Origin: Bacteroidaceae bacterium
GTDB lineage: Bacteria; Bacteroidota; Bacteroidia; Bacteroidales; Bacteroidaceae
Assembly: GCA_017622815.1 (NCBI GenBank)
Contig: JAGAQH010000006.1
Location: forward strand, 1-39,359
DNA: 39,359 nucleotides
Direction of reading: 5' to 3'
In this document: positions 5,743-20,095 of the stretch, piece after piece
Position numbering within the stretch: position 1 is the first letter of the stretch
Layout of the letters: the number at the start of each line of letters is the position of its first letter
Made by a program: the position numbers and the translations under genes
The notes under the pieces: model-generated
Databases searched by the model: none
Told to the model about the DNA's origin: nothing
Seen by the model: the letters and a program-made list of their open reading frames with translations, nothing else

Positions 5743-5776
5743 AATATACGTCGATAAACCAAAAGAAAACGCGCCC

Positions 5777-5842
5777 CGTTGCGAGGGGCATCGCTCCACG
5801 TTGTGAAGGCCATCGCTTTACGTTGCGAGGGGCATCGTTCCA
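5777..5842 (+). repeat. Three tandem 22-bp repeats between the two calycin-like genes
   Basis: Three contiguous units of exactly 22 bp (5777-5798, 5799-5820, 5821-5842), each starting CGTTG and containing GGCATCG or GGCCATCG. Units 1 and 3 differ by one base; unit 2 is more diverged. The 145-bp gap otherwise holds only an AT-rich leader before the ATG at 5888. No clear terminator or promoter was seen. Confidence 0.85.
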
Positions 5843-5887
5843 CGGAGCACATAAACAAACATTCAATAATAATAACAATAAACCAAA

Positions 5888-6370
5888 ATGAAGAAACTTT
5901 TCCTATCATGCATCGCTCTCCTGAGCATAGTGCTGTTCTGTGCATGCGGTTCTGAGGACGGAGCCTCAGCCAAGGCAGAGGGCACATACATGACCCTGCG
6001 CGAAACCAACATGGTGAACCTTCCTCCCACCATACCCTTCACCCCTGTTAAGGACCGTGTGACGGTGAAGGTTAAGGCCGTGACAGACGATATGGTAGAT
6101 GTGACCATTCCGTCTATGACCTACAAATTCAATGGCACAGACATGGTTATCCCCGTATTCACCATCCACAACCTCCCCGTGCTGGATGCCGGCAAGGAGG
6201 GTGTGATCATCCCCATACACGATTTCAAGGAGAAGGTGGACAACAAGGATGTCATTGGCAAGATTGAGGTAGAGATAGAGCCCGACGGCGAGTTCGATAT
6301 GGACCTGACCTTCAAGTACGGCAGCATGCCGTTCGGCTTGAAGCAGGAGTACGAAAGCCTCCGCGACTAA
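5888..6370 (+). CDS. Calycin-like lipoprotein, second copy
   Basis: Lipoprotein of 160 residues: signal MKKLFLSCIALLSIVLFCAC with lipobox FCAC (Cys20), then a mature beta-rich domain. The segment IPVFTIHNLPV followed by the strand pair IGKIEVEIEPDGEFDMDLTF and the ending KYGSMPF fit the calycin-like barrel family (PF13944) of Bacteroidota. It resembles the C-terminal half of the preceding gene. Its stop codon abuts the ATG of the HmuY-like gene at 6371 with no intervening base, indicating translational coupling. The function is unknown; the operon suggests an accessory surface protein of a heme-type uptake system. Confidence 0.82.
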   Translation: MKKLFLSCIALLSIVLFCACGSEDGASAKAEGTYMTLRETNMVNLPPTIPFTPVKDRVTVKVKAVTDDMVDVTIPSMTYKFNGTDMVIPVFTIHNLPVLDAGKEGVIIPIHDFKEKVDNKDVIGKIEVEIEPDGEFDMDLTFKYGSMPFGLKQEYESLRD

Positions 6371-7126
6371 ATGCCTGTCTTGAGACACATACACCGGAAT
6401 ACCCTTGCACTCTGCCTGGCATCCCTTGTGCTGGCAGGGTGCAATGGCATATTTGATGGCATCTATGACGAGCCGGTGCGTGATGAGGCCTTGCAACTGG
6501 GTTTCAACCCTGCGGCAGAAGAGGGCAGGTACACCCTCGTTATGGATGCACGCAACTATGACGAGTGGATATACATGGACCTGCACCGCCTCACGCTGGA
6601 GAAGTACGACATACCCACCACCCTGACGGGAGAGTGGGACGGCAAGAGCGTGTGGGCAAGGTATAACGTGCAAGGTTCCCGCTATACCCTTCTGGAGGAA
6701 CGGCAAGTGGACACACAACCCGAACCCGAGGAATGGGACTTGGCCATACACCATTTCGACGTGCGCACCAACGGCGGTCAAGTCCTGCAAACGGGCTACA
6801 CGTCGGTGGATGACCTGCCCGAGAGTTCCGTATCCTTTGCCTCCGAAGGCTTCCGCCCCGACGAAAGGACGAGCCACCAGTGCATAGTGGACTTCTCGGG
6901 CATGTTCGACTACAACATCTGGTATCAGGCCTCGCCCGTCAATCTGGTGCTCTCGGATTGGGTAAGGATGGATTTCTCCACACCTCCGCCCAAGTACGAG
7001 GCCTCGCGCCGTGTCTACCTCCTGCGCATGCAGGACGGCACCGTGGCGGCCCTGCACATGAAGAGTTACATGAGCGAGGCAGGCACAAAGGGCATACTGA
7101 CCATCGACGTGAAATACCCATATTAA
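6371..7126 (+). CDS. HmuY-like hemophore-type lipoprotein
   Basis: Lipoprotein of 251 residues with lipobox LVLAGC (Cys24). The mature protein fits the HmuY family (PF14064): an early Trp-containing strand after a YDEWIYMDL motif, and the C-terminal pattern RRVYLLRMQDGTVAALHMK...GILTIDVKYPY, equivalent to the VY-K-DG-Y-K ... Y-Y ending of known HmuY proteins. HmuY of Porphyromonas gingivalis is a surface lipoprotein that captures heme and passes it to the receptor HmuR; related proteins in other species use different axial ligands. Heme ligands cannot be fixed from sequence alone here. It directly follows a calycin-like lipoprotein and precedes a HmuR-like TonB receptor by 32 bp, which supports the family call. 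Confidence 0.78.
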   Translation: MPVLRHIHRNTLALCLASLVLAGCNGIFDGIYDEPVRDEALQLGFNPAAEEGRYTLVMDARNYDEWIYMDLHRLTLEKYDIPTTLTGEWDGKSVWARYNVQGSRYTLLEERQVDTQPEPEEWDLAIHHFDVRTNGGQVLQTGYTSVDDLPESSVSFASEGFRPDERTSHQCIVDFSGMFDYNIWYQASPVNLVLSDWVRMDFSTPPPKYEASRRVYLLRMQDGTVAALHMKSYMSEAGTKGILTIDVKYPY

Positions 7127-7158
7127 GAGTCCCCTACCATTGGACATAATACAATGCA

Positions 7159-9129
7159 ATGCAGATGAAGCGCTTCCTAAGTACCTTTTCTCTCCTCCTG
7201 CTCCTTTGGAGTCTTTCCCCCGGCGTGTGCCGTGCAGAGACCTCAGAGGCGGATTCCGTGGCTTCCGACCATAGTATGTGGGAAGTGGTGGTGACGGCCA
7301 CCAGGACGCGCAAACTCCTGAAGGACACCCCCATACTGACTCGCGTGGTGAACCGCAAGGACATAGAAATGGCCGATGCCACCGACCTGCGCGACCTGCT
7401 CCAGCAGGAACTGCCCGGTGTGGAGTTCACCTATTCCATGAACCAGAAACTGAACATGAACATGTCTGGCTTTGCCGGGCAGAGCGTGCTGATTCTGGTG
7501 GATGGCGAACGCCTGGCAGGAGAAACCATGGAGAACGTGGACTTCAGCCGCATAGACATGAACAACGTGGAGCGCATAGAGATAGTGCGCGGTGCACAAT
7601 CCGCCCTCTATGGCGCCGGTGCTGTGGGTGGTGTGATAAACATCATCACACGAGGTGCCTCGCGCCCGTGGTCGCTGAACCTGAACGGACGTCTTGCCGA
7701 CCATCGCGAGCAACGCTATGGCGGTGTGCTGGGACTCAGCAAGGGCAGGGTAGGGAACATGCTGGATGTCCAGTACACCTCGGTGGACAACTATACGGTG
7801 TGCATGGATTATGCCGACGAGTGTCAGTTCCGAAATGTCTACGGCGGACGCACCTGGAACGTGAAGGACAAGTTCACATACCGCCCCACCGATGCGCTGC
7901 GCCTGACGGCACGTGCAGGGTACTACTTCAAGGAACTCACCACCGATGCTGACGTGTACGAGCGTTTCCGCGACTTCTCGGGCGGACTCCGTGCGGAGTG
8001 GGACATTACGGGCAAGGACCATCTGGAGGTCTCCATGTCCTACGACCAGTACGACAAATCCGACCTCCTGCGCCTCTGGGAGCGCGACGTGATGGATTAC
8101 CGCAACCTGCAGATGTCCGTGCGCACAATGTACAATCGCACGTTCCGGCAGAAGGACATCCTCACCGTGGGAGGCGACTACATGCGCGACTATCTGCACA
8201 CATACCAGTTTTCGGACGGCAAGGAACGCGTGCAATACACGGGCGACCTCTTTGCCCAGTACGATTGTTTCCTGGGCAAGCGATGGGAACTGATTGGTGC
8301 CGGAAGATGGGATTACTTCTCGGACGCCAAGGGGGCGTCCCAACTGACGGGCAAACTGGCGGCACGCTACACCTTCGATTCTTTTATCTTAAGGGCAGGC
8401 TATGCCGGCGGATTCCGTGCACCCACACTGAAGGAGAAGTATTCCTACTTCAATATGGTGGGCGACATCTACGTGAAGGGCAACGAGGCTCTGGAGGCAG
8501 AACGTTCGCACAACTTCAACCTGTCGGCCGAATACTCGTGGCAGAACTACAACTTCTCTGCCTCCGCCTCCTACAACACCATAGCCAACCGCATCACGTC
8601 CTCCGCACCCCGGCAGGGTACTATGGGCGAGTACTATGTCCAGTACATCAACCTGCCACGTGCCCGTGTCCTCGGTGTTGAACTCCTTGCACTGGGACAA
8701 TGGACCTTGCAGGGAGGGCACAAACTCAGGGCCAGGGCAAACTATGTCTACACCCGCGAGTGGGTAAGCCAGGGCGGTGCCACACCATATTGCCCTGCCC
8801 GTCCCCATTCGTTCAACCTGCGCATGGATTGGGACAAGCAATGGACCTCTTTCTACGGAACCACCCTTTCCGTCCTTGGCCGTGTGCTCTCGGCCGTGGA
8901 TTACGAGACGATACAGATGGATTATCCCTTCACTCCCCGCCAGGTGCACAATCCTGCCTACACCATCTGGAAGGTACAGTTGCAGAACCGTCTGGGCAAG
9001 GGCGTCAGGTTCAACATAGCCGTGGACAATGTCTTCAACTACTCCCCCGAGGTGTATTACTTCAACTCTCCCGTCACCTTGGGTATCAACCTCATGGCAG
9101 GCATCAGCGTGGATGTGGACAGACTTTGA
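7159..9129 (+). CDS. HmuR-like TonB-dependent outer-membrane receptor
   Basis: Outer-membrane receptor of 656 residues. Signal peptide MKRFLSTFSLLLLLWS...CRA (a second in-frame ATG at 7165 gives the more typical start), a TonB-box-like VVVTATRT, plug domain (about residues 45-155, ending VRGAQSALYGAGAVGGVINIITRG), then a 22-strand-type barrel ending in aromatic-rich strands. FRAP (419-422) followed by NEAL (442-445) corresponds to the FRAP and NPDL motifs of heme receptors such as HmuR. The length is that of heme/siderophore receptors rather than SusC. It lies downstream of a HmuY-like lipoprotein, as in the hmuYR arrangement. Heme or another porphyrin is the likely ligand (inference from motifs and context). 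Confidence 0.9.
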   Translation: MQMKRFLSTFSLLLLLWSLSPGVCRAETSEADSVASDHSMWEVVVTATRTRKLLKDTPILTRVVNRKDIEMADATDLRDLLQQELPGVEFTYSMNQKLNMNMSGFAGQSVLILVDGERLAGETMENVDFSRIDMNNVERIEIVRGAQSALYGAGAVGGVINIITRGASRPWSLNLNGRLADHREQRYGGVLGLSKGRVGNMLDVQYTSVDNYTVCMDYADECQFRNVYGGRTWNVKDKFTYRPTDALRLTARAGYYFKELTTDADVYERFRDFSGGLRAEWDITGKDHLEVSMSYDQYDKSDLLRLWERDVMDYRNLQMSVRTMYNRTFRQKDILTVGGDYMRDYLHTYQFSDGKERVQYTGDLFAQYDCFLGKRWELIGAGRWDYFSDAKGASQLTGKLAARYTFDSFILRAGYAGGFRAPTLKEKYSYFNMVGDIYVKGNEALEAERSHNFNLSAEYSWQNYNFSASASYNTIANRITSSAPRQGTMGEYYVQYINLPRARVLGVELLALGQWTLQGGHKLRARANYVYTREWVSQGGATPYCPARPHSFNLRMDWDKQWTSFYGTTLSVLGRVLSAVDYETIQMDYPFTPRQVHNPAYTIWKVQLQNRLGKGVRFNIAVDNVFNYSPEVYYFNSPVTLGINLMAGISVDVDRL

Positions 9130-9334
9130 TAAACGGAAAGGTGAAAACGGAAAACTGCGAGCATGGTAGGGACACGGCATGCCGTGTCCGAAAAACAAGA
9201 GCAAAGTGGACTCGGCATGCCGAGTCCCTACGCCCCGAACGAGAGCAACTAAGGCAATGTCAAGACAACGAACCAAAGGTCGACGTCAAGTCAAGTCGGC
9301 TTAAAACGGAAAACTGAAAGGTGGAGATTGTTCT
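9130..9334. repeat. Palindrome pair (REP/BIME-like) and CGGAAA repeats
   Basis: The gap contains two perfect 20-bp palindromes: GGACACGGCATGCCGTGTCC at 9170-9189 and GGACTCGGCATGCCGAGTCC at 9208-9227. They differ only by a swap of one base pair in the stem. The pair is bounded by GTAG on the left and CTAC on the right, so the whole unit is itself an inverted repeat. Copies of the ACGGAAAGGTGAAAACGGAAA motif flank it (9131-9155 and 9303-9325). No gene is seen in this gap. Confidence 0.85.
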
Positions 9335-9706
9335 ATGGGCAAGATAGAGAGAGAAAAGCAGACTGTGGAGGCTATGATACGCCTTTATTGCAAGGGGAAG
9401 AGGCATGGGGAAACGGAAAATGGAACCGCTCACCGCTCATCCGCTCACCTTTCCGTTTTCCCCGTTCCCCCTCTCTGCCTCCAGTGCCAGGCATTGTTGG
9501 ATTATGCCATTCTGCGCTTGGAGCATTGCCGCTTTGGCGAGGACAAGCCCAGTTGCACCAGATGCCCGGTGCATTGCTACAAACCTGACATGCGCGAGCA
9601 GATAAGGCAGGTGATGCGCTATTCCGGTCCCCGCATGCTCCTTCACGCCCCAATCCTGGCCATTGGGCACCTGTGGGACTTCCTGAGGGCGAAGGTTGGG
9701 GGGTAA
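9335..9706 (+). CDS. YgbA/NO-responsive small protein (PF11756) with an in-frame repeat insertion
   Basis: Small cysteine-rich protein of 123 residues of the nitrous-oxide-stimulated promoter family (E. coli YgbA relatives). Family hallmarks: ReKQTVEaMIRLYCK at the N-terminus, CLQCQALLDYAILRLEHC, then the highly conserved FGEDKPSCTRCPVHCYKPDMR and a closing HPILAIRHL-like segment (HAPILAIGHLWDF). Residues 26-46, coded by 9410-9472, are extra compared with the family, where RLYC is followed within a few residues by the LCxxCxxLLxYA segment. The extra DNA is the same CGGAAA/TTTCCG inverted repeat found in nearby intergenic gaps. The frame is kept. Role: E. coli ygbA responds to nitrosative stress; the biochemical function is not established. 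An Fe-S or metal role for the cysteines is possible. Confidence 0.88.
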   Translation: MGKIEREKQTVEAMIRLYCKGKRHGETENGTAHRSSAHLSVFPVPPLCLQCQALLDYAILRLEHCRFGEDKPSCTRCPVHCYKPDMREQIRQVMRYSGPRMLLHAPILAIGHLWDFLRAKVGG

Positions 9707-9707
9707 A

Positions 9708-9769
9708 GTCTTAGGGTCTTTAAAGTCCTTAGAGTCTTTAAGGTCCTTAAAGTCTTTAGCGTCATTAAA
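9708..9769 (+). repeat. 9-bp tandem repeat (GTCTTTAAA-type)
   Basis: Seven consecutive units starting with GTC, spaced 9 bp apart (first unit 8 bp): GTCTTAGG, GTCTTTAAA, GTCCTTAGA, GTCTTTAAG, GTCCTTAAA, GTCTTTAGC, GTCATTAAA. The array begins one base after the stop codon of the upstream gene and ends 13 bp before the ATG at 9783, so it fills the intergenic space. Confidence 0.85.
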
Positions 9770-9782
9770 TAAAAAAGATATT

Positions 9783-10061
9783 ATGAATCTCAGCGGATTG
9801 CTCGTGGGCCTTGCCACATTCCTGATTATAGGCCTTTTCCACCCCATCGTCATCAAGTCGGAGTATCACTTCGGCGTAGGTTGCTGGTGGGTGTTCCTGC
9901 TTGTCGGCATCGGCTTTGCCATTGCCTCGTGCCTGGTGCACGATATTGTCATTTCCACCATCCTCGGAGTTACAGCCTTCTCCTGCTTCTGGAGCATCCT
10001 GGAACTCTTTGAACAACGCGAGCGTGTCCGCAAGGGCTGGTTCCCACGGAAGGAGAAGTGA
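9783..10061 (+). CDS. DUF4491 family small membrane protein
   Basis: Membrane protein of 92 residues with three hydrophobic segments (about residues 5-20, 32-50 and 55-75) and the conserved features of the Bacteroidota DUF4491 family as I recall them: FLIIGLFHPIVIKSEYHFG near the N-terminus and ILELFEQRERVRKGWFPRK at the C-terminus. The ATG at 9783 gives the family-typical start MNLSGLLVG. A longer frame would translate the 9-bp repeat array. The function is unknown. It is preceded only by the repeat array, so it may be co-transcribed with the YgbA-type gene. Confidence 0.88.
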   Translation: MNLSGLLVGLATFLIIGLFHPIVIKSEYHFGVGCWWVFLLVGIGFAIASCLVHDIVISTILGVTAFSCFWSILELFEQRERVRKGWFPRKEK

Positions 10062-10470
10062 AGACTTGGGGGCATTAAGGTCCTTGGGGGGATTCGCGGG
10101 TGGATGATTTATGCTCTGTTTTGATCGTGGTTAGTACTTCAGTTATGTCGTGGTTCTAACCTCCCTCAGTGCCGCTGATGGGCATCGTTTTTTGTGGGCT
10201 TTTATACGCTCTGCTAACTAAATTTTGGTATCGTTTGCATGCGTGTGCGGTGTTTGTGGCGTTATTCCTTTTCGTAGGGAATAAATCCCGCGTAATGCCC
10301 TAATCACATTTTTGTATTTTGCTTTTTGAGGGGGCTTTTTTCCTCGATTTTGTTTGTTCAAAAACCCTAAATGCCATATTTTTGCACCCAGAAAAACAGA
10401 CAGGTGCTTTACGCCTTTATTCATGACAGGAGGCAGAAAGGGTATGTAACAAATACAGAGGAAAAGGCAA
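10062..10470. other. 409-bp intergenic region with a promoter near its right end
   Basis: No coding sequence supported. The left end (10062-10100) has a remnant of the GG(T/C)CCTTGGGG repeat; the middle is AT-rich without recognisable structure. The right end holds the promoter at 10353-10384 and a leader of roughly 80 bp before the receptor gene. I looked for a cobalamin, TPP or similar riboswitch in the leader and recognise none. Confidence 0.6.
10353..10384 (+). promoter_or_regulatory. Bacteroidota promoter for the seven-gene TonB/ABC cluster
   Basis: TTTG at 10353-10356, 20-bp spacer, TATTTTTG at 10377-10384 (exact TAnnTTTG). It points at the TonB receptor gene starting at 10471 and predicts an untranslated leader of about 75-80 bases. 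Confidence 0.75.
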
Positions 10471-13452
10471 ATGAACAGACGTGTATCTGCATCAATCTCC
10501 AAGGTTTTGCTTGTGGTTGGCATAATGCTGATTGCATGCGGAGAATGTTTTGCGCAGATTCATGCCGCACTTGCCGGACGGGTAACGGATTCGCGTACAA
10601 AAGAACCCTTGCCAGGGGTGATGGTGACCACTGACCAGAAAGGACTTTGGGCAATAAGCGACGAAGACGGATATTACACCATCGCCAATCTGGACTTCCC
10701 CACGGCGGTAGTTACGTTTTACCTGCTCGGATATCAGAAGCAGAGTGTCCCCGTGAAACTTGGTGAAGGCAAGAACACACGTAACGTGGCCCTGCACGAA
10801 ATGAACCTGTCGCTGGACGAGGTAGTGGTTACGGCACAGAGACGCACGGAAAGCCTGAGCAGTTCCTATGTCATTGACCGCAATACGCTGGATCATGCAC
10901 AGATAATGAACCTGAACTATGTCGCCACGCTCCTGCCCGGCGGAAAGACCGTAGGCGACCAGAACCTTGCATCCGGAGCAAAGCCGGTAGCCCTGCATGC
11001 CGGCGGTGCAAGCGAATTGGGAAATGCCTCGTTCGGCACGGCCATAGACCTGGACGGGCAACGGTTGGAAACCAATGCGTCGTTTGGCGAAATACGTGGT
11101 GTAGACCTTCGCAATATAGGGTCGTCGAACATAGAATCCGTGGAGGTGGTGGCCGGTATTCCTTCCGTGGAGTACGGCGACCTGTCCAACGGAATGGTGA
11201 AGATAAACACCCGCAAGGGACGCACTCCCTTTGTGGTGGAACTGATGGTGGAACCCAAGACCAAGTCCATAGCCCTGAGCAAGGGTTTCAATCTTGGCCG
11301 TAGGGCAGGAACGCTGAATGTCAATGCCGAGCATACGCGCTCCATTTCCAACCTGGCCTCGCCACACACGGCATATATGCGCAACAACGTGAACCTGACC
11401 TATTCCAACGCCTTCAAGGACCACATGGGGCATCCCCTCAGCCTTACCGCATCCTTGGGAGGAAACATAGGCGGATACAACTCGGAGGCCGACCCCGACG
11501 AGTTCAAGGATACATACACAAAGACGCGCGACTACATGCTCCGTGGCAACGTGAAACTCCACTGGCTCCTGGACAATCCGTGGATATCTAACCTCACCCT
11601 GCAGGCTTCCGTGTCGTATAGCGACAAGATGAACGAGACGAACTCCAACAAGAGTTCCGCTTCTACACAACCATACATCCATGCCACCGAGGCAGGGTAC
11701 CACATAGGCGAACTCTACGGGGAGAACCCCGATGCCGACATCATCCTCGGACCTACGGGTTACTGGTATGTGCGCTCCTTTACCGACTCCAAACCTCTGG
11801 CATATTCCGTAAAGGCAAAGACCGACTGGACAAGGCGTTGGGGCAAGACAATGAACACCGTCCTGTTGGGTGCGGAACTTGCCGGTAGCGGAAACCTGGG
11901 ACGAGGCCTCTATTACGAAGACATGAGCGTGGCACCCACATGGAGGGAGTACAGGTATGACGAACTGCCCTTCATGAACAACGTGGCACTCTTCCTCGAG
12001 GACAAGTTCTCCATGCCTGTGGGCAGACGCTCCTCCCTGCATCTGAGGGCAGGACTCCGCTCGGACATCACCATGATAAAGGGTTCGGAATACGGCACCG
12101 TGGCAAACGTGTCTCCGCGCATCAATGCAAAGTACGTCTTCTGGGAGAACCGTGGGAAGGGAGTAAGCGACCTGTCGGTCTTCGGAGGTTGGGGAAAGTC
12201 GGTCAAGCAACCCTCCTTTACCGTACTGTATCCAGCCCCCACGTATAGCGACAAACTGGCCTTCGCACCAGGCACCACCGCCGACGGCAGGACCTTCTAT
12301 GCCTACTATACACAACCCACCACACCCAAGTACAACCCCGACCTGAAATGGCAATACACCATACAGAACGAACTGGGAGTGGAGGCGAAGTTGTGGGGCA
12401 CGCGCGTATCGCTTTCCGCCTTCCGCAACAAGACCTTCAACCCCTACATGAGCCGAAGCGTCTACACACCTTATACATACAAACTGACCACGCAAGCCGA
12501 CATAGAGGCAGGGTGCACCATACCCACAGAGAACCGCCAGTACATGATTGACCGTCACACGGGCATCGTAACGGTGAAGGACCGTACCGGAGCCATTGCC
12601 GACCAGGTGCTGGGGTACAAGGAAAGGAACACCTACGTGAGCCAGACGGAGTACACCAACGGTTCGCCCGTGGAAAGACGCGGTTTGGACCTGATAGTGG
12701 ACTTTGCGCAGATACGCCCCATTCGCACAAGCATCCGTCTGGACGGCAACTATTACTGGTACAAGGGCCTGAACGAAACCCTAGTCGCCTCCATGGGGCA
12801 GGCATCGGCATCCATGGACGGCACGCCATACAAGTATGTGGGGTATTATGCCGGTTCGAGCACGGCCGCCAACGGTTCGCTCTCAAGGCAGATAAACGCC
12901 AACCTGACCATATCCACGCATATTCCCAAGATACGCATGATATTCTCCCTGCGCATAGAATCCTCGCTCTACACTTACGGGCAGAACCTCTCCGAGTATG
13001 CCGACGGGAGGTTGAGAGGCTACCTCCTGGAGGCGGCAGGGGACCATCACGGCACTCAGCAGGGGGGCATATACAACAAGGACTCTTATGTGGCCGTCTA
13101 CCCAGAGTACTACACCGCATGGGGCAATCCCGAAGAGAAGATACCCTTCCTGGACAAGTTCGTGTGGGCAAGGGAGAACGACAGGGAACTGTATCAGGAC
13201 CTCTGCAAACTGGTGGTGAAATCCAACACCACGTACTTCTTCAACGAGAACCGCATAACGGCCTACTATGCCGCCAACTTCAACGTGACCAAGGAACTGG
13301 GCAAATGGGCCTCCGTCACCCTGTATGCACGCAACTTCTTCTATCAGATGGGCAAGGTGAAATCCTCGCAGACGGGCCTGGAGTCGTCCCTGTTCGATAG
13401 CGGTTACATACCCAAGTTCTACTATGGCATGTCCGTGAGAATAAAACTTTAA
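10471..13452 (+). CDS. TonB-dependent receptor with N-terminal carboxypeptidase-regulatory-like domain
   Basis: Outer-membrane receptor of 993 residues. N-terminal signal (MNRRVSASISKVLLVVGIML...CFAQ), then a beta-sandwich carboxypeptidase-regulatory-like domain (about residues 30-115: GRVTDSRTKEPLPGVMV ... YYTIANL), TonB-box-like segment LDEVVVTAQRRTE, a plug domain to about residue 240 (VEVVAGIPSVEYGDLSNGMVKI), and a large barrel ending MSVRIKL with the terminal residue hydrophobic. It is longer than siderophore receptors but is not followed by a SusD gene, so it is not a classical glycan-uptake pair. The next genes are a DUF4876 lipoprotein and a DUF6850 barrel, a combination that recurs in Bacteroidota. 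The ligand is unknown. The stop overlaps a non-used upstream ATG of the next gene, consistent with an operon. Confidence 0.92.
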   Translation: MNRRVSASISKVLLVVGIMLIACGECFAQIHAALAGRVTDSRTKEPLPGVMVTTDQKGLWAISDEDGYYTIANLDFPTAVVTFYLLGYQKQSVPVKLGEGKNTRNVALHEMNLSLDEVVVTAQRRTESLSSSYVIDRNTLDHAQIMNLNYVATLLPGGKTVGDQNLASGAKPVALHAGGASELGNASFGTAIDLDGQRLETNASFGEIRGVDLRNIGSSNIESVEVVAGIPSVEYGDLSNGMVKINTRKGRTPFVVELMVEPKTKSIALSKGFNLGRRAGTLNVNAEHTRSISNLASPHTAYMRNNVNLTYSNAFKDHMGHPLSLTASLGGNIGGYNSEADPDEFKDTYTKTRDYMLRGNVKLHWLLDNPWISNLTLQASVSYSDKMNETNSNKSSASTQPYIHATEAGYHIGELYGENPDADIILGPTGYWYVRSFTDSKPLAYSVKAKTDWTRRWGKTMNTVLLGAELAGSGNLGRGLYYEDMSVAPTWREYRYDELPFMNNVALFLEDKFSMPVGRRSSLHLRAGLRSDITMIKGSEYGTVANVSPRINAKYVFWENRGKGVSDLSVFGGWGKSVKQPSFTVLYPAPTYSDKLAFAPGTTADGRTFYAYYTQPTTPKYNPDLKWQYTIQNELGVEAKLWGTRVSLSAFRNKTFNPYMSRSVYTPYTYKLTTQADIEAGCTIPTENRQYMIDRHTGIVTVKDRTGAIADQVLGYKERNTYVSQTEYTNGSPVERRGLDLIVDFAQIRPIRTSIRLDGNYYWYKGLNETLVASMGQASASMDGTPYKYVGYYAGSSTAANGSLSRQINANLTISTHIPKIRMIFSLRIESSLYTYGQNLSEYADGRLRGYLLEAAGDHHGTQQGGIYNKDSYVAVYPEYYTAWGNPEEKIPFLDKFVWARENDRELYQDLCKLVVKSNTTYFFNENRITAYYAANFNVTKELGKWASVTLYARNFFYQMGKVKSSQTGLESSLFDSGYIPKFYYGMSVRIKL

Positions 13453-13484
13453 TGTTAAATAATAATACCAAACAAACAATCATT

Positions 13485-14840
13485 ATGAAAAAGTTTCTTT
13501 CAATGATGGCCGCCGTGGCCATGCTTTTTGCCTTCACGGCATGTACCGAGGATGAGGACGATTACCGCACCTATAGCGTGGCGGTGCAGTTGCTGACACC
13601 CGATGTGGCCGACGCACCTCTGGAGGGTGTTACCGTTACGGCACGTGGACAGGTGGGAACCGAACTGGAGGCCAAAACCAATCAGGACGGCATTGCCGAG
13701 TTCATGCTCCCCGAGGACATGTACATGTTTACCGCTTCACAGAAGATTTCTGCTGACGGAACAACCTACACCGTAAACTACAAGCATCAGCAAACCGTGT
13801 CCAAGCAGGACTTCGCCTCCAATGCCACGCTGAACATCGTCATGGACCCTGTGCTGAGCAAGGGCGGACGCCAGGTAATCCTGAAGGAAATTTACGTAGG
13901 CGGTTGCCCAAAGGACGACGGCTCGGGCAATTATCAGTTTGACAAGTATGTGGTCATCTATAACAACTCTGACCAGGTGGCCGATATCAAGAACTTCTGT
14001 ATCTCCAACGCCGGCCCCTACAATGCCAATGCCGGTGCCAATAACTATGTGGACGACAAACTGGTGTATGCCGACCAGGGTTACACACCTGCACACGCAT
14101 ATCTTTTCTACATGACCAAGAACCTTGTCATGGAGCCTTATTCTTCCGCCACCATAGCACTGACTGGCGCAATCGACCATACCGCCACGTATTCCAATTC
14201 CGTGGATCTCAGCAAGGCCGACTATGTGTGCTACGACCCCGAGGACTTCTGGAACACCAGTTACCATCCCGCACCCTCGGCCGACATCCCTTCGGAGAAC
14301 TATCTGCTTGCCTCCAAGTTCTGCCTTGCCGCTCAGAACGCTACGGCATGGAGCATGGTAGGCCCCGGCATGTTCATATTCTCCACCGCCGACAACGACC
14401 CTCTGGCATACAGCCAGGATGAGGCCAACCGCTACTACATGCCCGGCAAGGAGAACAATGCCGTATATGCCGGTGCAAAGATTCCCAATGAGTGGATTTT
14501 CGATGCCGTGGACATCTGGGGAGCCGACTATGTGGGCACTTCTTTGCCCCGTTTCTCTACTGAGTTGGAGAGTGGTTACATCTACATGACCAACAAGCAG
14601 GGTTATTCCATCTACCGCAATGTCGACAAGGAGGCAACAGAGGCATTGCCCGAGAACGAGGGCAAACTTATCTACAACTATTCTCTGGGCACAACCGACT
14701 ATCAGGGTGCAGAATCCACCGACCTCAGCGGCATAGATGCCGAGGCTTCCATAGCCAACGGCGCACATATTATATTTATGGACACCAACAACTCCATGAA
14801 CGACTTCCACCAGCGTAAGGTGGCAAGCCTGAAAAGATAA
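13485..14840 (+). CDS. DUF4876 lipoprotein
   Basis: Surface/periplasmic lipoprotein of 451 residues, signal MKKFLSMMAAVAMLFAFTAC with lipobox FTAC (Cys20) followed by an acidic stretch (TEDEDD), as in surface-exported Bacteroidota lipoproteins. An N-terminal domain of about 90 residues resembles a carboxypeptidase-regulatory/Ig-type fold (PLEGVTVTARGQ ... AEFMLPEDMY). The rest fits DUF4876 (PF16215): ILKEIYVGGCPKDDGSGNYQFDKYVVIYNNSD, then an AYLFYM...PYSSATIAL region. The lamin-tail-like character of VVIYNNSDQVADIKNFCIS suggests a beta-sandwich. The ATG at 13485 is preferred; an in-frame ATG at 13452 overlaps the receptor stop and lacks a signal peptide. A role as ligand-binding partner of the adjacent TonB receptor is inferred. 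Confidence 0.88.
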   Translation: MKKFLSMMAAVAMLFAFTACTEDEDDYRTYSVAVQLLTPDVADAPLEGVTVTARGQVGTELEAKTNQDGIAEFMLPEDMYMFTASQKISADGTTYTVNYKHQQTVSKQDFASNATLNIVMDPVLSKGGRQVILKEIYVGGCPKDDGSGNYQFDKYVVIYNNSDQVADIKNFCISNAGPYNANAGANNYVDDKLVYADQGYTPAHAYLFYMTKNLVMEPYSSATIALTGAIDHTATYSNSVDLSKADYVCYDPEDFWNTSYHPAPSADIPSENYLLASKFCLAAQNATAWSMVGPGMFIFSTADNDPLAYSQDEANRYYMPGKENNAVYAGAKIPNEWIFDAVDIWGADYVGTSLPRFSTELESGYIYMTNKQGYSIYRNVDKEATEALPENEGKLIYNYSLGTTDYQGAESTDLSGIDAEASIANGAHIIFMDTNNSMNDFHQRKVASLKR

Positions 14841-14859
14841 TCCACCCCCGATAGTACGA

Positions 14860-16482
14860 ATGAGAAGAAACGTCCTCTTGCCATATCTGGTGTCTTTAGT
14901 CCTGACGGGCGGTGTTTTCCACACCGCCTTGATGGCGCAAACGGATAGTACCTTCAACTGGAACACTCTGCGCGACGTGCGCCTGGACAGGAACTGGTTC
15001 AATAGCGAGAACCCTGCCGGCCTTCATGCCTTCGGGCAGGGCACGGAATCGGAAATCGTGCTTTATGGCAAGGGGGGATATGGAGGACTGAAGGAGTATT
15101 TCCGCTCAAAGAACGAAACGGCCTTCGGGGTGGAGGCCTCTTCCATGGCAAGACTCTCCCGGCGTGTGGTGGTGGGCGGTCAGGTGGGATACCGCAACGT
15201 GTCGGCCAAGGACATTGCCGGTTCCTACTTCATTGACCCCACGCAGACACCCTTCGACCTGGTGGAGTTTACTGACGCCAATGCCGGAGACAAGACCCTG
15301 GAGGAGTTCTCCCTGCAGGGCGGGGTGGGAGTGAACCTGGCCCGATGGGTGTCGTTGGGCGCTTCGTTGGATTACAAGGCCGCCAACTACTCCAAGCGGA
15401 AGGACCTGCGCCATGTCAATTCGCTTATGGACATGGACCTCGTTTTGGGAGGCGTGTTTCATGCTGGCGGGCGTGTGGACATAGGCCTGAACTATGTGTA
15501 CCGCCGCAGGAACGAAACCCTGCTCCTGAGCACGTACGGCACACAGGACAAGACCTTCGTGTCGCTCCTGAACTACGGTGCGTTCTTCGGCAAGCAGGAA
15601 ACCTTCGGCGAGATAGGTTACACGAAGGAGAACGAGAACAAACCCCTCTTCGATGCCCGTCACGGTGCAACCCTGCAGGTGGCGTGGCGCATAGGCAATG
15701 CCGAGTGGTTCAACGAGGCGGGTTTCCATACGCGTAGCGGATATTATGGCGACCCCTCGTACTCCACGGTGGTTTATTCCACCCACCGGGGGCACGGATT
15801 CTTCTATCAGGGTCTGCTGACCTTCGCCTCGGGGAGCGATGCCCATCGCTTCGGGTTGCGGTACGGACAGGAACACGTTGCGAATACCGAGAACATATAT
15901 TCCTACAAGAACGAGGAAACGGGGCGCGACTACATAGAATACCTTGGCGAGCGCGAGGTGGGCGAGCGTACCCAAAGGTCGCTTGCCTTGGGCTACACGG
16001 GACGCTTCGGCATAAGGCACGGCCTTGCACGATGGGAGGCCTGGGCGGACGCATCCCTTGACAACCGCAACACGAGGGCATCCAACTATCCCGACTACAG
16101 AAGGCAGAACATATCCTGGTGGCGGCTGAAGGCCATGGGCACGCGCAACTTCCTCTCGGGCAGGAACTGCTATTCGCTCTCCGTTTCCGCCCTGTATGGG
16201 GGAGGTTCGGGAGAACCGTGCGCCGACGGACGGTACGGGTCGGGCACATCGGGCGAGGCCCCGACACGCACCCGCAACGACCTGCTCATGCAGGAGTGGG
16301 AATACCTTGCCGCCTCGCAGATAGGGGCAGGCATAGGCTTTACCTACTCGCGTGCCATGTGGAAGGGCAAGGTGCGCGGAAATGCGGGGCTTGCCTATGA
16401 CATGTGCAAGGCTTTTGGCACCAGGCATCTCGATGGCACAATGCGACATACCGTGTCGCTAAGGATAGGATGCAACTTCTAA
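14860..16482 (+). CDS. DUF6850 outer-membrane beta-barrel protein
   Basis: Outer-membrane protein of 540 residues with signal peptide MRRNVLLPYLVSLVLTGGVFHTALMAQ, followed by the family-typical start RDVRLDRNWFNSENPAGL, then alternating amphipathic strands with many aromatic and glycine residues to a C-terminal HTVSLRIGCNF (terminal Phe, as in barrel-assembly signals). This fits the DUF6850 family seen next to DUF4876 proteins and TonB receptors in Bacteroidota. There is no plug domain, so it is not itself a TonB receptor. Spacing from the DUF4876 gene is 19 bp. The function is unknown; a second pore or surface component of the same system is a reasonable guess. Confidence 0.85.
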   Translation: MRRNVLLPYLVSLVLTGGVFHTALMAQTDSTFNWNTLRDVRLDRNWFNSENPAGLHAFGQGTESEIVLYGKGGYGGLKEYFRSKNETAFGVEASSMARLSRRVVVGGQVGYRNVSAKDIAGSYFIDPTQTPFDLVEFTDANAGDKTLEEFSLQGGVGVNLARWVSLGASLDYKAANYSKRKDLRHVNSLMDMDLVLGGVFHAGGRVDIGLNYVYRRRNETLLLSTYGTQDKTFVSLLNYGAFFGKQETFGEIGYTKENENKPLFDARHGATLQVAWRIGNAEWFNEAGFHTRSGYYGDPSYSTVVYSTHRGHGFFYQGLLTFASGSDAHRFGLRYGQEHVANTENIYSYKNEETGRDYIEYLGEREVGERTQRSLALGYTGRFGIRHGLARWEAWADASLDNRNTRASNYPDYRRQNISWWRLKAMGTRNFLSGRNCYSLSVSALYGGGSGEPCADGRYGSGTSGEAPTRTRNDLLMQEWEYLAASQIGAGIGFTYSRAMWKGKVRGNAGLAYDMCKAFGTRHLDGTMRHTVSLRIGCNF

Positions 16483-16526
16483 TGAAAACAAAAACGAATA
16501 CTAACAAATAAAACATTACAGACAAG

Positions 16527-17105
16527 ATGAAAACAAGATTCATGATCATCATGGCCGCCATGGCCTTTGTGTTCACTTCATGTGGCAACAACAACACCGG
16601 TACAAACAATGCAGGGCAGGCACAGGAGGCACCAGCCGCCCTGGAGATTGACCAGGTGCTGGCATCTGCCGACACCCTTGCCAACCAGGAAATCACCATG
16701 GAGGGCATCTGCACCCACACCTGCAAGCATGGTGCAACAAAAATCTTCATGATGGGTAGCGACGACACGAAGACCATCCGCGTGGAGGCAGCCGGCCTTG
16801 GTTCCTTTGACCAGAAGTGCATCAACAACATCGTGCGTGTGAAGGGTATCCTTCGCGAGGAACGTGTGGACGAGGCATATCTCCAGCGCTGGGAAGCATC
16901 GGTGGCCGCCTCCACGGCCGAGCAGCATGGCGACGGCGAGGCAGGATGCGACACGGAGAAGGCTGCACGTGGCGAGACGGGTAACACCGTGGAGGAGCGC
17001 ATTGCCGACTTCCGCCAGAAGATTGCCGCACGCAAGGAGGCCACTGGCAAGGACTATCTCTCCTTCTACTTCGTGGAGGCATTGGCTTATGAGGTTGTCG
17101 AGTAG
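16527..17105 (+). CDS. Lipoprotein with CxHxCxH motif, possible metal-binding OB-fold-like protein
   Basis: Lipoprotein of 192 residues (signal MKTRFMIIMAAMAFVFTSC, Cys19). After an Asn/Gly-rich linker the core begins ASADTLANQEITMEG and carries Cys62-x-His64-x-Cys66-x-His68 followed by GATKIFMMG, then IRVEAAG and INNIVRVKGILREERVDEAYLQRW. The strand pattern (introduction of a strand, CTHTCKHG turn, VRVKG strand) looks like a small OB-fold in the style of nucleotide- or heme-handling periplasmic proteins. A second part (about 130-190) is charged and helical with one more Cys. The CxHxCxH motif suggests a bound metal or Fe-S/heme group. It sits between the outer-membrane genes and the ABC genes, so it could carry the substrate across the periplasm. 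No named family is recognised with confidence. Confidence 0.75.
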   Translation: MKTRFMIIMAAMAFVFTSCGNNNTGTNNAGQAQEAPAALEIDQVLASADTLANQEITMEGICTHTCKHGATKIFMMGSDDTKTIRVEAAGLGSFDQKCINNIVRVKGILREERVDEAYLQRWEASVAASTAEQHGDGEAGCDTEKAARGETGNTVEERIADFRQKIAARKEATGKDYLSFYFVEALAYEVVE

Positions 17106-17138
17106 CATACGGGAGGCTGCTGTTTGCAAGATGATATT

Positions 17139-18017
17139 ATGGAAAATGTAATAGAATGTCGCAACATTACCCACTACTACGGTAAGCGACTCATATACGA
17201 GGACCTTTCCTTTGCCGTGCCACGCGGGCGCATCCTGGGCCTCTTGGGAAAGAACGGCACGGGAAAGACCACAACGATAAACATCCTGAGCGGTTTCCTG
17301 CAACCCCGTTCCGGCGAGTGTCTGATACTTGGCGAGAAGATAGGGCAGATGAACCCTCTGACGCGCCGCAAGATAAGCCTGCTCATAGAGGGGCATGTCC
17401 AGTACCAGTTCATGACCATCGAGCAGATAGAGCGCTTCTATTCCAGGTTCTATCCCAACTGGAAGCGCGAGGCATACTACGAACTGATGAGCCGCCTGAA
17501 GGTGGCGCCGCACCAGCGCATCAACCGCATGTCGTGCGGACAACGCTCGCAGGTGGCGCTCGGTCTTATCCTGGCACAGGATGCCGAGGTGCTGGTTCTG
17601 GACGACTTCTCCCTGGGACTCGATCCGGGTTATCGCCGTCTCTTCGTGGATTACATGCGCGAATATGCCAAGGCGGAGAACAAGACCGTGTTCCTTACCT
17701 CGCACATCATCCAGGACATGGAGCGCCTCATAGACGATTGCATCATCATGGATTACGGCAAGATACTGGTGCAGATGCCCGTGGAGGAACTGCTGGGCAA
17801 GTTCCGCCGCTACACCACACAGGTGGAAGCGGATTTCAAACTGAAGGACACCGAAGGCATATACAATCCCTCCGTAATCCGCTCCTCCATGGAACTCTTC
17901 TCCATGTTGCCCGAGGAGGAGGTGAAGGCAAGGCTTGCTGCCCAGGGGGTAGGGAACCTCAGTGTGGAAAGGGTAGGGCTGGAGGATGCCTTTATCGGAT
18001 TGACAGGTAAATACTAA
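17139..18017 (+). CDS. ABC transporter ATP-binding protein with non-canonical Walker B
   Basis: Nucleotide-binding subunit of 292 residues of the ABC-2 type. Seen: Walker A GKNGTGKTT (residues 37-45), Q-loop region EGHVQYQFMT, signature MSCGQ (131-135, in place of LSGGQ), Walker B VLVLDDFSLGLDP (Asp155-Asp156) and switch His189 (TSHIIQD). The residue after the Walker B aspartate, normally the catalytic Glu, is Asp156, and the usual EPT/EPS turn is DFS. ATPase activity may therefore be slow. The ATG at 17139 is preferred over a TTG at 17124. It is followed by its membrane partner after a repeat array of about 80 bp. It exports or extracts an unknown substrate at the inner membrane. Confidence 0.9.
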   Translation: MENVIECRNITHYYGKRLIYEDLSFAVPRGRILGLLGKNGTGKTTTINILSGFLQPRSGECLILGEKIGQMNPLTRRKISLLIEGHVQYQFMTIEQIERFYSRFYPNWKREAYYELMSRLKVAPHQRINRMSCGQRSQVALGLILAQDAEVLVLDDFSLGLDPGYRRLFVDYMREYAKAENKTVFLTSHIIQDMERLIDDCIIMDYGKILVQMPVEELLGKFRRYTTQVEADFKLKDTEGIYNPSVIRSSMELFSMLPEEEVKARLAAQGVGNLSVERVGLEDAFIGLTGKY

Positions 18018-18020
18018 ACG

Positions 18021-18105
18021 AACGGAAAAGTGAAAACGGAAAAGTGCTCTCTGAGTACTCCGAGTATTCTGATTATTCCGATTACTCCGATTACTCCGAT
18101 TTCCG
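18021..18105 (+). repeat. CGGAAA motif plus 9-bp GATTACTCC tandem array
   Basis: Between the ATPase and permease genes: first ACGGAAAAGTGAAAACGGAAA (18021-18046 region), then six units of 9 bp starting at 18053 (GAGTACTCC, GAGTATTCT, GATTATTCC, GATTACTCC, GATTACTCC, GATTTCCG). The same 9-bp family recurs after the DUF4857 gene at 19885-19956. No promoter is apparent. Confidence 0.85.
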
Positions 18106-18123
18106 TCTACAAAACAAAAGTAT

Positions 18124-18795
18124 ATGATAAAAGCAATTTACTATAAGGAATGGATAAAGACGAGATGGTATTGCCTTCTCGCCCTTCTTCTCTCGTCAGG
18201 CTTTGCCGGCTATGCCATGATGCGCGTGGCCAGGGTGTGCTCCCTGAAGGGTGCCGACCACCTCTGGGTGGTGATGATCCAGCGCGATGCCATCTTTGTG
18301 GACATGCTCCAGTTCGTGCCCCTGTTCTTGGGACTTGCCTTTGCCGTGGTGCAGTTTGCACCGGAGATGCATCACAAGTCCTTCAAACTGACCCTGCACC
18401 TGCCCATTCGCGCCTCCAAGGCGCTGGCCTCCATGCTTGTCTTCGGCGGTGCCGTGCTGCTTGGCATCTTTGCCCTGTCGCTGCTTATCATGTGGGCATA
18501 TCTGCATACGGTCCTTGCACCCGAACTGTGGCGGCACATCATCCTCAGCACCTTGCCGTGGTATCTGGCAGGAGTGGCGGCATACCTGCTCACGTCGTGG
18601 ATAGCCCTGGAACCCACATGGAAGCGCCGTGTGCTAAATGGTGTGGTGGCCGTGCTCCTTCTGCGTATATACTTCCTGGCACCTGCACCCGAGGCCTACA
18701 ACGGGTTCCTGCCCCTGCTTGCGCTGGTTACCCTCATGTACAGCCTTCTGTCCATGTTGTCATTGTCCAACTTCAGGGACGGACGTCAGGATTAA
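18124..18795 (+). CDS. ABC-2 type transporter permease
   Basis: Inner-membrane protein of 223 residues with about six hydrophobic segments (roughly residues 15-35, 60-80, 95-120, 135-155, 165-185, 190-215). It starts MIKAIYYKEWIKTRW, the short cytoplasmic amphipathic opening typical of ABC-2 permeases, and closes with a charged tail. It is paired by position with the ATPase upstream and with a DUF4857 protein 25 bp downstream. No substrate-specific feature is visible. Confidence 0.85.
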   Translation: MIKAIYYKEWIKTRWYCLLALLLSSGFAGYAMMRVARVCSLKGADHLWVVMIQRDAIFVDMLQFVPLFLGLAFAVVQFAPEMHHKSFKLTLHLPIRASKALASMLVFGGAVLLGIFALSLLIMWAYLHTVLAPELWRHIILSTLPWYLAGVAAYLLTSWIALEPTWKRRVLNGVVAVLLLRIYFLAPAPEAYNGFLPLLALVTLMYSLLSMLSLSNFRDGRQD

Positions 18796-18820
18796 ACCCC
18801 ATTAACAACAAGAATGAACC

Positions 18821-19858
18821 ATGATAAAAGTCAGTAAAATATTCTTCGCCTGCCTCGTGGCGGTGCTCCTCGTGTGGCAGATACCTTCGCTCTACAATAC
18901 CTTTGTGGCCGAGTCCGTCTCCACGCCCTTCACCCTGTACAGTTCCGTGGCGGGCAGGTTTGCCACACTTGAGCACGACGAGGACAAGAAGATGCAATAC
19001 AGGGATGCCTCGGGCAGGGAGTACACCGAGGAGCAGTTCGACTCCATACTGCCCACTTTCTACTATCGCCAGTTGATTACGGACGGCCGTTTCCCCGACA
19101 CCATCTGCGGACGTGCCGTTACGCCGCGCGACATACAGTTGTCCAATTTCAATATGCGCATTTCGCCATTGGACCTGAACAAGCCCCGATTGGGCATTCA
19201 GCAGATGCTTGAAAGCATGTCGGGACGTGTAGACCTGGAACTCCCCGATGATGTCTTCCGCATTACGGAGTCGGGCTTGGAGTTCGTGAAGATGTCCGCC
19301 AATACCATAGACGAGGCGAAAAGCGCTTCCTTCACACGCATGATGCAGGGCAAGGGTTTCCGGTTCCCTGCCTACCGCCTCTCGGGCAATCCCACCGACC
19401 GCAAGGAGTACGACGAGGGTTATGTGATGCTGGATGCCGAAAGGAAACTTTTCCACGTGAAGCAGACGGTGGGCCGCCCCTATGTGCGTGCCATAGCGCT
19501 CCCCGAGGGCATGATTCCCGAGCACCTCTTCATCACGGAGTTTCCCTCGCGCAAGTGGCTATGCTTCATCTCCGACACCCAGGGAGCCTTCTGGGTGGTG
19601 GAGCGCGACTCTTATGCCGTACGTCTTACCGGCGTGCCCCGCTTCAATCCCGAGATGGAATCCATGCTCATCATCGGCAACATGTTTGATTGGACGGTGC
19701 GCATAAACCGTGCGGAAGAGGAAAGTTACTATGCCCTTTCCGCCCAGGACTACTCTCTGGTGGATTCCCTCGTGTATTCCACGCCCAGCCAAACCCTCCC
19801 CGGCCTCAGGTTCACATCCACAAAGGACAAGTTCGTGAAGCCAAGGTTTGTGAAGTAG
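18821..19858 (+). CDS. DUF4857 membrane-anchored protein
   Basis: Protein of 345 residues with a single N-terminal hydrophobic segment (residues 5-25, KIFFACLVAVLLVWQIPSL) that acts as a membrane anchor, and a large extracytoplasmic part. Features such as EDKKMQYRDASGREYTEEQFDSILPTFYYRQL and the later WLCFISDTQGAFWVVER match the Bacteroidota DUF4857 family (PF16149), normally encoded next to an ABC ATPase and permease. The beta-rich region from about residue 200 (VMLDAERKLFHVKQTVGRP ... GAFWVVERDSYAVRL) looks like a propeller or repeated-strand domain. It probably forms the periplasmic part of the ABC machine and links it to the outer-membrane components encoded upstream. Function unknown. 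Confidence 0.85.
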   Translation: MIKVSKIFFACLVAVLLVWQIPSLYNTFVAESVSTPFTLYSSVAGRFATLEHDEDKKMQYRDASGREYTEEQFDSILPTFYYRQLITDGRFPDTICGRAVTPRDIQLSNFNMRISPLDLNKPRLGIQQMLESMSGRVDLELPDDVFRITESGLEFVKMSANTIDEAKSASFTRMMQGKGFRFPAYRLSGNPTDRKEYDEGYVMLDAERKLFHVKQTVGRPYVRAIALPEGMIPEHLFITEFPSRKWLCFISDTQGAFWVVERDSYAVRLTGVPRFNPEMESMLIIGNMFDWTVRINRAEEESYYALSAQDYSLVDSLVYSTPSQTLPGLRFTSTKDKFVKPRFVK

Positions 19859-19956: not shown

Positions 19957-20095
19957 AGTCAATGAACCTGCGTGTCAGGGGAGAGAATTCCTCTGTGCGG
20001 CGGCGCGTATGTTGTGTGCAAGTTTCTGCTTGTTGACCTCTATGTCGGTTTCATTCCATTTTGTCCTCCCCGAGGGCACTTTTTGTCCTCCCGGG

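Follow-up and report, generated by a model that had tools for sequence, protein, structure and literature searches.

Several of the described systems closest to the locus reported here combine a TonB-dependent receptor with partner proteins. XusABC of Bacteroides thetaiotaomicron (BT_2063–2065) comprises a receptor, a surface lipoprotein, and a PepSY reductase, after which, according to the parts of the article available to us, ferrous iron passes the inner membrane via an unknown protein (PMC13142918). HiuABC of Caulobacter and FoxB-type systems likewise pair a receptor with a periplasmic PepSY reductase, and no DUF4876, ATP-binding cassette (ABC) transporter, or DUF4857 is described for them in the excerpts at hand. 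PG1019–PG1022 of Porphyromonas gingivalis and BT_1938–1939 contain a receptor plus DUF4876 (4q1z is the structure of BT_1938), and the accessible text names no ABC–DUF4857 part for them. Here we analyze a seven-gene locus in a 39,359-nt stretch of DNA from a Bacteroidaceae bacterium (assembly GCA_017622815.1, contig JAGAQH010000006.1; hereafter the window). With a probability of about one half, we read this locus as an iron-starvation-induced system that takes chelated iron, most likely bound to a foreign siderophore, on a Xus-like plan with an added ABC–DUF4857 module.

The locus comprises seven consecutive forward-strand open reading frames (ORFs) at 10471–19858, with intergenic gaps of at most 106 bp. 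The seven same-strand genes, their named families, and the promoter ahead of them, all put forward in an original prediction for this DNA, were recovered by ORF analysis, Pfam searches, and promoter pattern matching. In the features listed below, L109 denotes the nearest relative locus, which lies in genome G641, and L112 a further relative.

10353..10384, + strand: Bacteroidota-type promoter, TTTG ... TAnnTTTG, the same in L109 and L112
10471..13452, + strand: TonB-dependent receptor, 993 amino acids (aa), with an N-terminal CarbopepD_reg_2 domain (Pfam)
13452..14840, + strand: DUF4876 lipoprotein, 462 aa (Pfam, 9.5e-22)
14860..16482, + strand: DUF6850 protein, 540 aa (Pfam, 1.6e-36)
16527..17105, + strand: CxHxCxH lipoprotein, 192 aa (alignment)
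16710..16730, + strand: CxHxCxH motif, residues 62–68 (C62-T-H-T-C66-K-H68)
17106..17138, + strand: 33-bp gap, at the place of a PepSY_TM_like_2 gene in the nearest relatives
17139..18017, + strand: ABC transporter ATPase, 292 aa (Pfam ABC_tran, 2.9e-22)
18124..18795, + strand: ABC permease, 223 aa, with multiple transmembrane (TM) segments and without a Pfam family
18821..19858, + strand: DUF4857 protein, 345 aa (Pfam, 1.2e-106)
20062..20078, + strand: terminator-like stem, on a weak basis (19 such stems found versus 10.6 expected)

Curated Pfam cut-offs were exceeded by genes 1, 2, 3, 5, and 7, with no family above cut-off for genes 4 and 6. None of the seven genes contains an internal stop, and the ratio of nonsynonymous to synonymous substitution rates (dN/dS) stays under 0.3 in all of them when compared with L109, L112, and L114. 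The ABC gene most likely starts at the ATG at 17139, as in L109, rather than at the TTG at 17124.

The seven genes are part of a real, conserved unit. A scan of the GTDB genome collection returned 234 DUF4857 relatives, the best 80 of which are the loci named here; 67 of them extend 8 kb or more beyond DUF4857 on its upstream side and are evaluable. Families were counted over all ORFs, gene calls being wrong in some loci (L147, L148, L155, L174, and L183). The TonB receptor and DUF4876 each occur in 64 of the 67 evaluable loci, DUF6850 in 58, the CxHxCxH lipoprotein in 66, PepSY_TM in 62, the ABC ATPase and the permease in all 67, and all eight families together in 51. Loci drawn from the family (17 of 22 evaluable) carry the receptor, DUF4876, DUF6850, ABC, and permease without exception, alongside the lipoprotein in 15 and PepSY in 13. 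In the phylum's other classes (8 of 12 loci evaluable), the counts are 8 for the receptor, 8 for ABC, 6 each for DUF6850 and the permease, 5 for DUF4876, and 3 each for the lipoprotein and PepSY. These per-set counts indicate that the ABC part accompanies the TonB receptor throughout, with the other parts thinning with distance.

Across 251 genomes of the same family, DUF4857 was found in 21 and DUF4876 in 61, and coordinates place DUF4876 within 7 kb of DUF4857 on the contig at 21 of 23 places; the exceptions are G467 (a 5-kb contig in a genome without a DUF4876 match) and G409 (a contig end). Where the DUF4876 ORF was long enough for comparison (63 named loci), the two genes share a strand in 49, with DUF4876 upstream in 45 and downstream in 4, and lie on opposite strands in 14. 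Since they stay together in several gene orders and strands, the DUF4876–DUF4857 link survives rearrangement, which agrees with the prediction of one trans-envelope system; the neighborhood survey of DUF4876, DUF6850, and DUF4857 thus rejects the condition that would have refuted the prediction, namely that the DUF4876/DUF6850 genes hardly ever occur together with the ABC/DUF4857 genes. DUF4876 is absent from three evaluable named loci (L153, L176, and L177), and the contig of L177 stops at the receptor. At the usual place of DUF6850, L169 (Rikenella, 5307–6797) encodes a DUF4932 protein, and a gene of similar size sits there in L174, L175, L177, and L181. Loci L087–L094, which lie outside the class, carry varying sets that include an extracytoplasmic function sigma factor/FecR pair, peptidases of types M16 and M28, a BNR protein with a sorting tail, and a NosR/NapH-like iron–sulphur membrane protein.

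Evidence on regulation comes from B. thetaiotaomicron, for which the portion of the source available to us lists BT3625–BT3633 as raised 36.7–128-fold without iron, with values of 14–19 in the colitis column (PMC10434189). These genes are annotated there as DUF4857, hypothetical, ABC ATPase, PepSY, PepSY, fimbrillin, DUF4876, DUF4876, and receptor, and were published as a putative fimbrillin synthesis and transport locus in B. thetaiotaomicron only, among three species (PMC10434189). Nine of nine positions agree with the order in the B. faecis locus L122 (receptor, DUF4876, DUF6850, Mfa_like fimbrillin, CxHxCxH lipoprotein, PepSY, ABC, permease, DUF4857), and the window follows the same annotated order apart from the fimbrillin gene and PepSY, which it does not share with the B. 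thetaiotaomicron locus. We infer that one published “PepSY” would be the CxHxCxH lipoprotein, and one “DUF4876” the DUF6850 protein. The metal proposed as likely ligand in the original prediction is thereby narrowed to iron, as far as the accessible expression values for this locus reach. Similarly, PG1019–1022 of P. gingivalis, encoding DUF4876 plus a receptor, appear in the part of the source seen as iron-regulated and raised 20.8–214.5-fold (PMC10434189). The available text of PMC11602724 names no gene of the locus, and in the open-access literature searched by family and locus names, as far as it was accessible, we found the genes only listed, with no functional description of the operon.

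One alternative is that the ABC–DUF4857 part serves envelope assembly, such as export of a surface lipoprotein or, in some species, of fimbrillin, and merely shares a control region with the receptor genes. Mfa_like_1 is present in L122, and other surface-like proteins stand at that place in L128, L163, L165, and L185. However, an unassigned same-strand gene directly precedes the lipoprotein in 19 of the 80 loci, and Mfa_like_1 was found in one of five tested. The ABC part does occur without DUF4876 in the three evaluable loci given above, but the contig of one of them ends at the receptor. We regard this alternative as improbable. Because the gene at the fimbrillin place is optional across relatives, the core of the operon is unlikely to be fimbrial.

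The gene set resembles XusABC in its TonB receptor, in the neighboring surface-export-like lipoprotein, in the PepSY protein of its relatives, and in the strong induction by iron starvation known, from a source seen in part, for the matching published locus. It differs in that the lipoprotein is DUF4876, with no Pfam match to DUF4374 (XusB) in the seven proteins; in that the relatives have a PepSY protein of the short PepSY_TM_like_2 form, which the window lacks; and in the addition of DUF6850, the CxHxCxH lipoprotein, the ABC ATPase, the permease, and DUF4857. The receptor contains CarbopepD_reg_2, Plug, and TonB barrel domains above Pfam cut-offs and is a TonB-dependent transporter, as in XusABC. 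It reaches 71.3 bits against the SusC-type model TIGR04056, far below the cut-off of 368.25, and Pfam found no SusD among the seven proteins; the locus is not a SusCD-type polysaccharide utilization locus, as had been predicted.

Acidic residues after the lipobox cysteine are a surface-export signal, and the DUF4876 protein carries such residues directly behind its lipobox Cys31. This protein passes the curated cut-off of its family (PF16215) and shares the fold of a solved member: its AlphaFold2 (AF2) model, with a predicted local distance difference test (pLDDT) score of 88.3, matches 4q1z in Foldseek at 4.7e-20 (hmmsearch, 2.4e-55), and its N-domain is TTR/CnaB-like. The DUF6850 protein (PF21012; 126.9 bits against a cut-off of 27) is probably an outer-membrane barrel, having a signal-peptide-like start and a C-terminal Phe; a distant homologue also matches OMP_b-brl (3.9e-05, below the family cut-off). 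The CxHxCxH lipoprotein is without the acidic export signal. Its motif is present in 69 of 72 ORFs labeled as this lipoprotein in the named loci (absent in L174, L177, and L181) and was rejected as a defining feature, the full motif occurring in 30 of 38 aligned rows and Cys66 in all 38. Three of the four motif residues, Cys66 being the exception, are replaced in some relatives, which leaves the proposed carriage of metal by this protein unsupported; nothing found speaks for the repair machine that was also proposed. DUF4920 in distant relatives of the lipoprotein (6.8e-12 in L089) and a weak tRNA_anti-like match may point to an OB-fold, with no convincing match in the PDB. The PepSY_TM_like_2 protein carried by relatives (Pfam, 1.9e-16) is about 189 aa long with conserved histidines.

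If the locus takes iron from a chelate, the surface lipoprotein DUF4876 would catch the ferric chelate and the TonB receptor would import it, with the barrel-like DUF6850 protein as partner. In the periplasm, the short PepSY_TM protein, acting as a b-heme protein, would reduce the iron and release it with help from the CxHxCxH lipoprotein. The prediction that this is not a standard siderophore system holds only with a qualification, because a receptor, a surface lipoprotein, and a PepSY reductase together make up the plan of XusABC.

By this comparison of gene plans, the ABC–DUF4857 part is a new element relative to XusABC, HiuABC, and CrtA–CrpH. DUF4857 (PF16149; 356.3 bits against a cut-off of 25) is modeled (AF2 pLDDT 85.6) with an N-terminal, TM-like helix at residues 2–29 and a beta-rich, propeller-like domain, and sequence search found no solved relative. 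Hidden Markov model matches of the permease fall inside three DUF4857 proteins (3.6e-25, 7.4e-24, and 2.1e-18), and L096–L098, from another class, encode a DUF4857–permease fusion whose neighbors include TonB receptors and, in L097, cytochrome c-like, CbiX-like, and PepSY genes. Such natural fusions link DUF4857 to the ABC complex. NosDFY-type assemblies consist of an ATPase, a small permease, and a membrane-linked extracytoplasmic partner; the present set has the same three kinds of component and differs in the modeled propeller-like form of DUF4857 and in having no Nos gene. NosD, NosL, and NosZ were not matched in the seven proteins in Pfam and NCBIfam searches (E 0.1; for the ATPase, among the NCBIfam matches listed, the best 25 of 186). 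Identification of the permease as NosFY, CcmB, or FecCD was rejected on finding no Pfam or PDB sequence match, and the permease and lipoprotein, having no Pfam family above cut-off, do not supply the CcmB and CcmE of a CcmAB/CcmE system.

The ATPase, permease, and DUF4857 protein would form one ATP-driven inner-membrane complex that works toward the periplasm, where its most likely task is to drive out the used carrier or to force the release of iron. Carrier export is a concrete guess because siderophore efflux from the periplasm is known elsewhere, as ExsFGH in a source seen in part. A bolder proposal, which we hold tentatively and with the odds against it, is that ABC–DUF4857 is a novel type of periplasmic engine, powered by ATP, that serves the pirating of iron, with both halves of the operon under one operator. 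In such an engine the ABC-anchored, propeller-like domain would couple ATP hydrolysis to the stripping of iron from the chelate or to the expulsion of the emptied carrier, with the short PepSY reductase and the CxHxCxH protein, as relay lipoprotein, for partners.

Control of the operon was approached through its promoters. In the window, TTTG at 10353 is followed by TATTTTTG up to 10384, and the receptor ATG lies 86 nt further on. Of 47 upstream sequences, some from near-identical relatives, 26 contain the pattern TTG-N19-21-TAnnTTTG, which we take to be the Bacteroidota promoter consensus, within 160 nt of the receptor; 200 shuffles gave 0.25 on average and never more than 2. Aligned receptor promoters contain a palindrome over the −33 element, with the best form TACCTA-N4-TAGGTA. 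A weight matrix for this operator was trained on 15 receptor promoters, whose own fit is no evidence, and leaves out, for weak or different sites, 11 of the 26 promoter rows (the window, L109, L110, L112, L113, L117, L118, L147, L169, L175, and L181). Between 350 bp upstream and 60 bp downstream of the called start, matches of at least 15 bits were obtained at 38 of 52 receptor units (at loci not used for training, 23 of 37) and at 14 of 23 lipoprotein-first units, which had no part in the training; seven loci have both. With 11 matches in 1.51 Mb, the background rate was 0.003 per 410 bp. The palindromic operator stands ahead of the two halves of the operon in many loci, including those in which the halves are split.

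Elsewhere in G641, a 20.8-bit match lies 66 bp before NifU_N-like and GGGtGRT genes (about 680–2491 of L273, G641:C42), the Pfam match of the NifU_N-like gene being just under cut-off; we count this site in favor of the iron reading. No match of at least 16 bits was found in 400 kb of the 5.16 Mb of P. vulgatus, which shows only that the site is rare, and the literature examined, as far as accessible, held no description of the palindrome. The candidate in the window is the following.

10215..10232, + strand: operator-like site TAACTAAATTTTGGTATC, weak (12.8 of 26.6 bits), 138 bp before the promoter

This is the sole match of at least 11 bits in the 39-kb window. Shuffled loci gave 50 matches of at least 12 bits in 1.42 Mb, or about one chance match per 39 kb, and only the position of the site is suggestive.

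Several observations weigh against an iron-starvation-induced, Xus-like system with an ABC–DUF4857 module. No operator match was found at 14 of the 52 receptor units and 9 of the 23 lipoprotein-first units, and the window, L109, and L112 match at best weakly. The operator also precedes receptor–DUF4876 loci without DUF4857 nearby (L101, L104, and L105) and lies in the gap between DUF5020 and the receptor in L106, so it is not private to the operon. DUF4857 is patchy across the phylum (15 of 395 genomes drawn) and within the genus of the window (none of 16 listed genomes). Pfam matched neither a periplasmic binding protein nor a FecCD permease of an iron-chelate importer in the seven proteins, and the PepSY protein found within the XusABC locus is missing here, so that the proposed reductase gene is absent from the locus in the window. 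L122 and BT3625–BT3633 were compared by gene order and annotation alone, and BT3629 is called “PepSY” where the CxHxCxH lipoprotein is expected, as BT3631 is called “DUF4876” where DUF6850 is expected. Finally, the accessible part of a P. gingivalis regulator-mutant comparison lists the DUF4876–receptor genes as changed (PMC10101095).

The missing PepSY gene was overlooked in the original prediction. The nearest relatives have eight genes, with PepSY_TM between the lipoprotein (gene 4) and ABC (gene 5); in L109–L112 its start overlaps the 3' end of the lipoprotein gene, and ABC comes next. In the window, 33 bp separate the lipoprotein stop at 17105 from the ABC start. The window's genome has one PepSY_TM_like_2 gene, on another contig and beside a second lipoprotein copy (86% identical).

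L108 8738-9863 (G000:C37), same genome: unlinked CxHxCxH lipoprotein–PepSY pair

In G641, PepSY is present twice, once as a 99% identical copy of the unlinked gene and once in the operon. The reduction step in the window's genome would thus be supplied by the unlinked pair.

PepSY is lost at the very place, 17.1 kb, where identity falls. Partial samples of the window's genome and G641 have a median identity of 96% over 117 matching 1-kb fragments, 10 of which are below 85%. To the left of 17 kb, 11 of 16 scored window fragments are at least 96% identical to G641 and five are at 69–90%; to the right (17,106–39,359), all 18 scored fragments are at 68–88%, and the sequence downstream of the operon in G641 is found here on contig C30 at 95–98% identity. 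This break may reflect real recombination or a chimeric metagenome contig, in which the front of one strain's operon was joined to the back of another's, and which would be compatible with the functional readings. The sharp contrast against the genome median and the separate placement of the post-operon sequence favor a chimera. Against it, low-identity fragments also occur elsewhere, as the counts above show; the genome contains no further close copy of the right part, whose guanine-plus-cytosine (GC) content is 0.499 against 0.497 in its G641 counterpart; and PepSY is also missing in 5 of the 67 evaluable loci, L147 aligning over the lipoprotein–ABC join without it. We consider a chimera possible, at somewhat worse than even odds. 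A foreign origin, suggested by the GC contrast across the join (0.55 versus 0.493), was dropped in view of the equal GC content of the G641 counterpart.

Within the DUF4876 gene, the mature part (13,600–14,800) is, over the greater share of its length, 52–76% identical to L109 per 150 bp, as against mostly 95–100% in the neighboring genes. On alignment this is a sharp, gene-internal replacement of the DUF4876 core, which would fit the expectation for a surface protein under diversifying exchange. A recent cross-species transfer of an island from hmuY to the lipoprotein (97% versus 83%) was dropped because the median across the whole genome is itself 96%, and because the stronger deviations are those of DUF4876 and of the sequence to the right of 17.1 kb.

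Upstream of the unit, at 6371–10061, genes for HmuY, a heme-receptor-like TonB receptor, YgbA_NO, and DUF4491 follow one another.

6371..7126, + strand: HmuY lipoprotein, a neighbor outside the unit (PF14064, 2.4e-28)
7159..9129, + strand: second TonB receptor, a heme-receptor-like neighbor (Pfam)

The second receptor matches TIGR01785 at 1.2e-39, yet its 136 bits fall short of the cut-off of 317. A short palindromic repeat that is dispersed in the genome and resembles repetitive extragenic palindromic sequences occupies 9131–9250; the stretch 9125–9260 has 60 matches in its own genome, itself included, and dozens in G641 and G643.

HmuY and the heme-receptor-like receptor, which lie directly upstream in G641 as well, speak for the alternative that heme or a porphyrin is taken up by the receptor and DUF4876 and handled in the periplasm by the CxHxCxH lipoprotein and ABC–DUF4857. 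A CbiX chelatase-like gene near DUF4857 in L097 fits this alternative, as does the response of a P. gingivalis DUF4876 gene in a hemin comparison (log2 −5.42 in the part of the source available; PMC10470040). However, of 114 sequences searched (the window and 113 loci), many of which end short of that distance upstream, none but the window yielded HmuY, and the neighbor may be local; HmuY belongs to the upstream locus and not to the seven genes, which are therefore no HmuYR system; and a hemin response may equal an iron response. We consider heme uptake unlikely.

Acquisition of copper or another metal, as by the Bordetella CrtA receptor and CrpH PepSY_TM pair, would draw on the CxHxCxH motif, the PepSY_TM protein of the relatives, and the NosR/NapH-like iron–sulphur membrane protein beside the operon in another class. 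Heme-copper oxidases are not known from Bacteroides. The publications on the CrtA and CrpH systems, as far as accessible, offer a precedent but confine the CrpH subfamily to species with heme-copper oxidases, and the matching B. thetaiotaomicron locus is iron-regulated in the published values seen; copper or another such metal is thus a remote candidate.

DUF4857 relatives are common, the 234 stretches of the GTDB collection including many from gut Bacteroides, Phocaeicola, and Alistipes. Their published counterpart, although classed as a fimbrillin locus, is, in the values available to us, strongly induced by iron depletion and raised in the colitis column. An ABC complex found alongside a PepSY reductase, a redox-looking lipoprotein, and a TonB receptor opens part of the inner-membrane iron gap of XusABC to testing in laboratory strains.

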